This document shows, piece after piece, positions 3,732 to 42,117 of a stretch of 49,230 nucleotides of DNA. Position 1 is the first letter of the stretch, and each line of letters opens with the position of its first letter. The notes beneath the pieces were generated by a model that searched no databases, was not told the origin of the DNA, and was given only the letters and a program-made list of their open reading frames with translations. The position numbers and the translations under genes are program-made. This DNA comes from an uncultured Candidatus Saccharibacteria bacterium. GTDB lineage: Bacteria > Patescibacteriota > Saccharimonadia > Saccharimonadales > Saccharimonadaceae. The DNA lies in contig CANDYV010000002.1 in assembly GCA_947425085.1 (NCBI GenBank), forward strand, positions 1 through 49,230, in the 5' to 3' direction.

Positions 3732-3821
3732 ATTATAGCATGAACCTCCGGTTCATACTGTAATTTCCTCGCGCTCAGAAAAACATGCTAGCATATTTTC
3801 GTTCGCTGCTCGTTATTATAG
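3732..3821. repeat. Structured two-hairpin intergenic element, copy 1
   Basis: Hairpin ATGAACC-TCC-GGTTCAT (3740-3756), stem CTGTAAT/ATTATAG (3758-3821) enclosing hairpin GAAAA...TTTTC (3778-3800). Confidence 0.65.
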
Positions 3822-3876
3822 CGAGAGGGGTCTGATTTGTCTAATGAACCCTGGCTTGGTTGCACCTGGCTGCGCT

Positions 3877-7010: not shown

Positions 7011-7090
7011 TACTTAATAAAGTATATAACATTTTTGTAAGGTTTCCAAGCGGTTTTGGTAATTTTAGTGATTCTTACTTGACTTTTATA

Positions 7091-7161
7091 GCGGCCAAGC
7101 CGCATAAAAACCTGCGCGCACTCGAAAGAGGCTGCCGCCAGCACCCTCTTTGCTCGCTTAC
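7091..7161. repeat. Structured two-hairpin intergenic element, copy 4 (divergent)
   Basis: Hairpin GCGGC-CAA-GCCGC then ...GCGCGCACTC-[AAAGAGG...CCTCTTT]-GCTCGCT. Confidence 0.45.
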
Positions 7162-7190
7162 TTGACTTTCGAGGAAAAGTGTGCTATAAT
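7162..7190 (+). promoter_or_regulatory. Plus-strand promoter facing the recG 3' end (antisense)
   Basis: TTGACTttcgaggaaaagtgtgcTATAAT, 17-bp spacer. Confidence 0.65.
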
Positions 7191-20460: not shown

Positions 20461-20489
20461 ATTGTAGCACAGATTATGCTTTTTGTCAA
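20461..20489 (-). promoter_or_regulatory. Promoter TTGACA-N17-TACAAT
   Basis: Minus strand TTGACAaaaagcataatctgtgcTACAATGG. Confidence 0.75.
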
Positions 20490-20490
20490 T

Positions 20491-20588
20491 ACTTAAGCCA
20501 TAAATGGCTTAAGTATTGCTAGCTGCGTTGTTAGGAAGAAAAAGTAAACTTTTTCTTCGCTCACTATCCTCGCTAGGGCAATAGCAAT
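20491..20588. repeat. Structured two-hairpin intergenic element, copy 3
   Basis: Perfect hairpins ACTTAAGCCAT-aa-ATGGCTTAAGT (20491-20514) and GAAGAAAAAGT-aa-ACTTTTTCTTC (20535-20558), enclosing stem ATTGCTA/TAGCAAT. Confidence 0.6.
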
Positions 20589-40668: not shown

Positions 40669-41940
40669 TCAGTCTAACCCCCATTTCTGGCGGCGTTTGA
40701 CGGCGGCTGGCTCGCGGCGGGGTAGCTTCGCGGCGTCGGCCGGGTCGGCAAGGAGCTTCTCGATAATCCACTCAAGATACTGGCTGCCCTTGAAAACGAT
40801 AGTTTCTTCGCCAGTGGCGTTATTCTCGATGAACTTGAGGGCTTTTTTCGGGTCGAGGGTGGTGCGGGCAGGAATACCAAGTTCCTTGAGGCGGGGCGCG
40901 GTATATTCTTTCGTGCGGCGACCGACCAGGATGACCATTTCCGGACCAGCGTCAGCAATGAGGTTGGCGAGCTTATGATGCTCTTCGCCTTCGATTGATC
41001 CCTGGTCGACAATATCGCCGATAACGAGCCACTTATGGCCAGCGCGGAGATTGCGGGTCATCTCGAGAATAGATTGAGCGCTGATGATATGGGCGTTATA
41101 ACTGCTGTCGATAAGATTAAGACCTTTTTTACCCTTAAAATAGCTGCTGCGGCCGGGCGGGACGGGCATAGAACTGAAATCGGTGCGAAGCGGAACGCCG
41201 AGATAGACCATGAGATCCTCGAGCATGAGGAGCTGGATGGCGATATCTTTCGGCTGAGGTTGGGCAAAATGAAACGAGGCGGACTCAAAGACGAAATCGG
41301 TGCGGGTCGGGTAGACGTTGTAGCGCTTGAGTTGCTTCTTCGAGAGGGCGATAACTTCGGCTTTGATGTTTTTGGTCGCTTCGCGCATCGGCTCGGAATC
41401 AGCATCGATATAAACGCGCTTCGTTGTGTTCTCGGGGAGAGTGGCAAATTCATGAGCAATGGCAGCGTCGAGGGTCGGGAATTTCCCTTCGGCGACGGCG
41501 TTCTCGAACTGGATGGCGTGAGAAAGACCGAAGGAGACCCAGAGAGTAACCTCGGGCTTCAACCAGGTCGCGAGAAACTCGGTCTCGTGCGGGCGTTCGC
41601 CATCGATTTCGACGACATAGAACTCACCTTTACGCTGATAATAGAGAGCCTTGAACGGCGCAAAAAGGAAAAGCTTAATCCAGCGGAGCTTCGAGCCGCG
41701 GACGCCATCCATCCCGAGGAGATCAAAGGTGATACCGAAGGCGGAATTGGCATCGTGGGAATAATGGGCGCGGTCGCCAAGCTCAAACTCAATCATGTGG
41801 AGCAAAGTGGTCTTCCCCGCGGAGCCGGTGACGGCGATGATGCGGGGATGCCAGCGCCGGAGAGCGAAGTTCGCAAAAAACCGGAAGTAGCGAGCAGCTA
41901 CGAAGTAAAACCGTTTTTTAAACCTCATCACGGGCGTCAT
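40669..41940 (-). CDS. Mur ligase family protein (MurF-like)
   Basis: IIAVTGSAGKTTLLHMIE P-loop, DSSYNAHIISAQSIL, WLVIGDIVDQGS. Confidence 0.9.
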   Translation of the reverse strand: MTPVMRFKKRFYFVAARYFRFFANFALRRWHPRIIAVTGSAGKTTLLHMIEFELGDRAHYSHDANSAFGITFDLLGMDGVRGSKLRWIKLFLFAPFKALYYQRKGEFYVVEIDGERPHETEFLATWLKPEVTLWVSFGLSHAIQFENAVAEGKFPTLDAAIAHEFATLPENTTKRVYIDADSEPMREATKNIKAEVIALSKKQLKRYNVYPTRTDFVFESASFHFAQPQPKDIAIQLLMLEDLMVYLGVPLRTDFSSMPVPPGRSSYFKGKKGLNLIDSSYNAHIISAQSILEMTRNLRAGHKWLVIGDIVDQGSIEGEEHHKLANLIADAGPEMVILVGRRTKEYTAPRLKELGIPARTTLDPKKALKFIENNATGEETIVFKGSQYLEWIIEKLLADPADAAKLPRREPAAVKRRQKWGLD

Positions 41941-41946
41941 AAGTTC

Positions 41947-42037
41947 ATTATAACATAAGTCTTCGACTTATACTGTAACTTCGTCGCGCTCCGAAGAGCC
42001 TGCCAGCAGGCTCTTCACTCGCTGCTCCTTGTTATAG
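41947..42037. repeat. Structured two-hairpin intergenic element, copy 2
   Basis: ATAAGTC-TTC-GACTTAT (41955-41971), stem CTGTAAC/GTTATAG enclosing GAAGAGCCTGC-CA-GCAGGCTCTTC (41993-42016). Confidence 0.7.
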
Positions 42038-42117
42038 CATAAATTTCGGGGAGGCTCGGGAAAACATTGAATTTTGCGAGGTTTACCTCTGTTATTTTGG
42101 GCTTATTGGTTTTATGG

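Follow-up and report, generated by a model that had tools for sequence, protein, structure and literature searches.

Miniature two-hairpin elements inserted beside promoter boxes in Candidatus Saccharibacteria: candidates for single-stranded DNA mobility

The closest working parallel to the miniature elements of this study is the insertion sequence IS608, whose target is chosen by base pairing and retained on the left, the guides at the hairpin feet pairing with the cleavage sites (PMC5934647). The elements described here resemble members of the IS200/IS605 family (IS608, ISDra2) in their subterminal hairpins and in being inserted immediately 3' of a short target retained on the left, as seen in an empty/filled pair and at CIRCE sites. 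They also hold a complement of the target at a hairpin foot, here termed A' and located beside hairpin 2, which by analogy may act as a guide. However, they carry no internal tnpA or tnpB, their 5-8 nt target is copied at the right end, and they possess a specific core with two tandem G.A motifs. Whereas IS608 has separate guides for its two ends, the single A' would serve both, and the element ends are unrelated to those of the one tnpA-bearing IS examined (locus L158 in genome G064). A derived IS200/IS605 miniature element is possible. A second resemblance is to the REP/REPIN sequences and their RAYT (TnpA_REP), with which the elements share the format of short extragenic palindromic ssDNA-hairpin repeats and the organization in superfamilies of many small families (PMC3733652, PMC3116915). 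At the hairpin foot, where REPs have an unpaired GTAG (or CGTC) tag, many elements show GTAG or near variants and others CAAG, GAGG or CGAG. Unlike REP/REPIN, the elements show a target duplication and an internal target complement, they number about 1-20 rather than hundreds, and most of the genomes that carry them have no RAYT. Since nearly all carriers lack the Y1 gene, we do not claim REP/RAYT membership. Like the MITEs of DDE transposons, the elements are non-autonomous, short and accompanied by a target duplication, but they have no fixed terminal inverted repeats; their termini vary with the target, A' and A change by site, and insertion is asymmetric and oriented. With integron attC sites they have in common conserved boxes flanking a variable folded ssDNA stem, but their outer stems are site-specific instead of RYYYAAC/GTTRRRY, and they are dispersed without a cassette array.

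Genomes of Saccharibacteria and other Patescibacteria are very small, and few mobile elements are known from them; among the cultured Saccharibacteria, Southlakia epibionticum ML1 and Nanosynbacter lyticus ML1 are tractable and naturally competent (PMC10633639). The elements measure about 83-150 bases, their sites are mostly gene promoters and their hosts are ultra-small Saccharibacteria. Our literature search found no paper describing these repeats in CPR, and the family and its mobilising enzyme appear to be undescribed so far.

Anatomy and folding of the window copies

The window, i.e. the whole stretch of 49,230 nucleotides that was analysed, comes from a Ca. Saccharibacteria MAG of 717 kb (45 contigs, 75% complete). 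An earlier note on this DNA had described a dispersed two-hairpin element at 3732-3821, with copies at 41947, 20491 and 7091. The sequences and pairings that it quoted are present, but the active strand is the minus strand, and the element proper occupies 3732-3814, positions 3815-3822 being the host target. The copy at 41947 was rightly grouped with copy 1; those at 20491 and 7091 (core model, E = 7e-11 and 1e-4) represent different subfamilies within one superfamily. Copy 1, read on the minus strand, is arranged as A1, a conserved joint, hairpin 1, a conserved joint, A' (the complement of A), hairpin 2 and A3, where A is GCTATAAT (Table 1). Copy 2 follows the same plan, with GAAGAGCCTGC/GCAGGCTCTTC as arms of hairpin 1 and ATAAGTC/GACTTAT as arms of hairpin 2, and the joints of copies 3 and 4 are only loosely shared with these two. 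In a scan with the core covariance model, copies 1-4 were the sole credible matches in the window (E values of the four matches in ascending order: 9e-12, 7e-11, 2.5e-10 and 1.3e-4). Copy 4 and another locus, L102, adjoin an opposite-strand promoter, TTGACT-N17-TATAAT; no obvious plus-strand gene follows that of copy 4 in the window.

Table 1. Positions of the elements, their parts and adjoining promoters or repeats in the window
Feature	Position	Strand	Basis
Copy 1, left target A1, the host -10 box GCTATAAT	3815..3822	-	17 nt from host -35 TAGACA; empty-site comparison
Copy 1, 5' joint AACGAGCAGCGAAC, conserved, tandem G.A motif	3801..3814	-	alignments, parsed joints
Copy 1, hairpin 1, arms variable yet paired	3778..3800	-	covariation
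Copy 1, 3' joint TGAGCGCGAGGAA	3765..3777	-	alignments, parsed joints
Copy 1, A' ATTACAGT, complementary to target A from within the element, putative guide	3757..3764	-	pairs with A1 and with A3
Copy 1, hairpin 2, ATGAACC-GGA-GGTTCAT, DNA-type GNA triloop	3740..3756	-	folding, loop classes
Copy 1, right end A3 GCTATAAT, re-forming the -10 box; the P-type ATPase ATG follows after 6 nt	3732..3739	-	empty-site comparison
Copy 2, copy-1 subfamily, at -10 box of Mur-ligase-like gene (40669-41940)	41947..42038	-	subfamily covariance model, E=8.5e-21
Copy 3, -35-box subfamily (TATTG^ACA), core 20523-20571, hairpin 2 20487-20518	about 20487..20578	-	core model, E=7e-11
Promoter TTGACA-N17-TACAAT adjoining copy 3, restored at its right end	20461..20489	-	sequence
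Copy 4, most diverged, between 13-bp direct repeats	7087..7156 (core-model match 7112-7164)	-	core model, E=1.3e-4
Direct repeat CTTACTTGACTTT adjoining copy 4	7074..7086	+	sequence
Second direct repeat CTTACTTGACTTT, flanking copy 4 opposite the first, holding the -35 of TTGACT-N17-TATAAT (7162-7190)	7157..7169	+	sequence

Folded as RNA, copies 1-3 gave z-scores from -3.2 to -6.1, and copy 4 alone folds weakly (z -2.3 and -0.6). Compensatory changes in the arms and in an enclosing stem had been put forward from the window sequence, and both are borne out. When the five full copies of the copy-1 subfamily are aligned, 98.5% of the cells are paired and 8 pairs carry changes in both partners (shuffles: 1.8, with 0 of 500 as high); in the alternative structure that includes the enclosing stem, the number of such pairs is 10 as against 2.4. 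Covariation also holds in a larger alignment of 85 related elements, which favours hairpin 1 since it was fitted to a model containing that hairpin: 98.6% of its cells are paired, with 250 double-changed cells against 63 after shuffling. The joints themselves form two tandem G.A motifs with a short stem in between. In this stem, which lies outside the covariance model, Watson-Crick pairing is seen at the first, Y-R position in 46 of the 52 distinct joints (C-G in 33, T-A in 13; 29.7 expected by shuffling) and at the second in 40 of 52 (23 expected). The pairings A1:A' and A':A3 are mutually exclusive and both are conserved; the A:A' stem has a mean length of 4.96 bp, compared with 2.55 bp when flanks are swapped between elements (sd 0.15; z about 16). 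In congeners, many copies take the form of a larger cloverleaf that also has an outer stem and a third arm, e.g. GAACC-GAA-GGTTC. Copy 2 and its ortholog L191 differ over most of hairpin 1 while pairing is kept and the CDS is 84% identical; each of three processes could account for such divergence, namely selection, hairpin-templated repair, and gene conversion with another copy as donor. The proposal of selection on structure is thus supported as regards structural conservation but not proven as regards selection as the sole cause, because hairpin-templated repair (quasi-palindrome correction) also yields compensatory changes.

Assigning the strand by folding energy alone had to be rejected since both strands fold about equally, and the orientation therefore rests on the joints, the loops and the side of the target. 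Loops of the cGNAg/cGNNAg type were found in 29 of 57 hairpins 2 and in 12 of 27 first arms, versus 6 of 80 background hairpins from the same genus (p=1e-8 and 5e-5, respectively); about half of the hairpin-2 loops fall outside this DNA class. Hairpin 1 has YNNR loops in 44 of 59 cases versus 8 of 80 in the background (p=3e-15), mostly gCNNGc, the chief form, aCNNGt and aTNNAt. Folding of the other strand would instead give mirror-image loops (cTNCg/cTNNCg), and these are nearly absent. GNA and GNNA mini-hairpins are reported to be exceptionally stable in DNA (PMC4686876), and the loop classes of the elements are among those described as unusually stable in DNA by Nakano 2002, as cited in PMC8373063. 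We infer that the folded form is single-stranded DNA rather than RNA.

Filled and empty sites

The insertion character of the elements, the empty site and the duplicated promoter hexamer lie beyond what could be seen from the window. In the congener G064, the orthologous P-type ATPase gene (protein 93% identical, DNA 82%) is preceded by TGGACA-N17-TATAAT-GAAACC-ATG with a single GCTATAAT (L289). The own locus reads TAGACA-N17-TATAAT, followed by 83 additional nucleotides ending in GCTATAAT and then by GAAACC-ATG; after removal of the 83 nucleotides, it aligns with G064 and the junction is free of gaps. Since G064 is devoid of exactly these 83 nucleotides and has a single GCTATAAT, copy 1 is an insertion 3' of the host -10 box. 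Read from the sequence, its right end restores the -10 box, so that the gene keeps one. Clean empty sites in more distant species point to a gain in the own genome rather than a loss in G064. The copy-2 locus is filled in two species and empty in others: a 96%-identical relative (L191) is filled at the matching site, and in L195, L196 and L198 a single TGCTATAAT precedes the ATG without an element. CIRCE-type heat-shock promoters are filled in G004, G006, G024 and G027 and empty in most other congeners displayed; there, the insertions lie 3' of TTG in the -35 region and the target is partly repeated at the right end. Judging by these comparisons, insertion is precise and oriented: the element enters 3' of a short target, and its right end repeats that target.

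Within the own genome, the full members of the first subfamily occupy five unrelated loci, and every one of the five adjoins a -10 box. All seven copies of the second subfamily, to which the copy at 20491 belongs, end with TTGACA and have a -10 box (TANNNT) 17 nt further on; this subfamily relates to -35 boxes (TTG^ACA) as the first does to -10 boxes. Other copies are found after stop codons (tuf, two species) or at tRNA 3' CCA ends. At the tuf 3' ends, A' tracks the last codons of each species (AAATAG/CTATTT in L114, AAAAATA/TATTTTT in L129). Direct repeats of at least 7 bp are present in only 14 of 67 elements, versus 3.6 expected, and the cloverleaf-type members, for which no empty site was demonstrated, are therefore only possible insertions.

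Several further loci deserve mention. At L107 (G023:C3:45701-46349), an element lies within the 3' end of a coding gene, and the C-terminal codons EPPRG-stop are doubled around it as the direct repeat CGAACCACCACGAGGATA. The loci L125, L276, L284, L273 and L149 comprise copies at tRNA 3' CCA ends, where A = ACCA or GACCA is repeated after the element, and two copies that appear to interrupt the T arm of a tRNA-Gln-like gene. Elements just after the stop of paralogous genes ending in FPVRCL/PLRCL (L106, L108 and L109 in G023, L117 and L118 in G063) were probably duplicated along with their genes.

A proposed single-stranded route and its alternatives

We put at roughly two in three the probability that these elements are non-autonomous, miniature mobile DNA of the ssDNA-hairpin type, IS200/IS605- or REP-like, with A' as target guide. 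As far as sequence can tell, mobility is established by genome comparison; the single-stranded route, the guide role and the enzyme we infer. The element would be recognised and moved as folded single-stranded DNA. Hairpin 2 and the core, in which joints with two tandem G.A motifs enclose hairpin 1, would be the landing structure for the enzyme, and A' would base-pair with the target as well as both ends, in the manner of IS200/IS605 guides. The moving enzyme may act in trans or have been lost. Promoter hexamers rebuilt by the element would limit the harm of insertion in a compact genome; that the gene is left with such a hexamer may explain why these copies are tolerated. A bolder version, conceivable though doubtful, is a new kind of DNA-guided miniature element in which a non-Y1 enzyme moves folded single strands. 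In such an element the single A', by pairing with both ends and specifying the target, would allow changes of a few bases to redirect subfamilies to promoter boxes (-10 or -35), stop codons or tRNA ends. A promoter-seated family that rebuilds the hexamer it enters would supply regulatory change in streamlined genomes, and most members of the genus carry it. With the target complement lying inside the element, the base-pairing rule of targeting is directly testable, and the missing enzyme constitutes a concrete search goal.

The elements could alternatively be cis-regulatory RNAs, with an aptamer-like or attenuator core in which A' alternates between A1, closing the core, and A3, giving a long hairpin 2, thereby controlling the downstream gene. 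The mutually exclusive, conserved pairings of A', the resemblance of conserved internal-loop joints between variable stems to an RNA motif and the many copies directly upstream of genes agree with this, but we find it unlikely: the downstream genes are unrelated (P-type ATPase, Mur ligase), some copies follow stop codons or tRNA 3' ends, the loops are of the DNA type, and, with a promoter hexamer forming the right end, the main transcript would begin past the element. Rfam returned only tRNAs at the gathering cut-off and no credible match at E<=5, so that identity with a listed riboswitch or ribozyme was rejected, in line with the earlier statement that no riboswitch class was recognisable.

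Less likely still is a REP/REPIN family mobilised by RAYT, whose Y1 gene would be missing through incomplete assemblies or transience. GTAG lies 5' of the hairpin in many members, as in GTAG REPs (PMC3733652), and the elements are extragenic, palindromic and multi-copy; however, GTAG alternates with CAAG and with GAGG/CGAG, no RAYT flanked by the elements was found, and the Y1 transposase domain (PF01797) occurs in only 2 of 60 congeners while the element is present in 36 of 40. The own MAG (75% complete) has no PF01797 match, Pfam scans of 30 of the larger ORFs of the window gave no transposase, as already noticed from the sequence, and an autonomous parent of IS200/IS605 type was not found. 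The IS200-like Y1 element of G064 (L158:1232-1318 and about 1300-2010) adjoins a decayed copy of the window subfamily; it was rejected as a partner, its end hairpins CCACCGGCTTAGCCGGTGG and AACCCCCGGCCTAGCCGGGGGTT being unrelated to the core. BLAST gave no match that would indicate a phage or plasmid origin. In IMG/VR, three of four pattern scans yielded 40 stretches, in none of which a good hairpin 1 was combined with an A/A' stem, and the four stretches that passed a loose stem filter were discarded as resembling coding sequence. A first pattern search with fixed joints had given mostly chance matches.

Immobile quasi-palindromes, made and kept perfect by template switching at the replication fork and then inherited vertically or lost, are very improbable. 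Hairpin-templated repair could yield the diverged yet paired hairpin 1 of copy 2 and L191, but template switching can produce neither conserved joints at unrelated loci nor the precise presence/absence of 83 nt with a duplicated hexamer, and the empty site already strains this explanation. Least credible of all are bidirectional intrinsic terminators or insulators between genes, spread by selection for termination: an A-run and a T-run often flank hairpin 1, but that of copy 2 is G+C-rich without a T-run, and termination needs neither joints, A' nor a duplicated target.

Relatives in the own genome and beyond

Model searches of the MAG, from which the copy counts derive, gave five full members of the copy-1 subfamily, along with a single deletion derivative. 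Besides those in the window, the full copies lie on contigs C41, C9 and C3 (n=3), and mean column identity is 87% across the five. The internal-deletion derivative of this -10 subfamily (L031, G000:C4:29009) is joined at a CATGCTA/TATGCTATAAT micro-homology. Given the incompleteness of the MAG and the position of several copies at contig ends, the copy number is a lower bound.

No strong relative of copy 1 was found in 35 congeners with its sequence model; the matches were weak, with shared anatomy and different stems, and for this reason the core covariance model was built. It finds about 15 elements in the own MAG and matches in 36 of 40 congeners, with up to about 20 elements per genome, so that the further copies whose absence the earlier note had set as a refutation do exist. 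Relatives detected with this model extend to other genera of the same family, and relatives with simpler joints are found in three families from other Patescibacteria classes. The named relatives are all Ca. Saccharibacteria, one of them being Ca. Nanosyncoccus alces. In the Patescibacteria families f81 and f82, related hairpins (L314, L318, L313, L316, L312) have GAAGTGAGCGAA / TGAGCGAACAAG or similar joints and keep the double tandem-GA plan with a spacer of 2 bp; together with the core elements, they possibly form a phylum-wide superfamily. Many copies occupy a single locus within their own genome and may be old. In G013, the loci L137, L140, L141 and L142 hold a strongly palindromic family of about 150 bp, with near-identical copies in which a long outer stem, TTTTGGTGCTGGAC...GTCCAGCACCAAAA, encloses the shared core. 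This family is the best candidate for a recently active subfamily.
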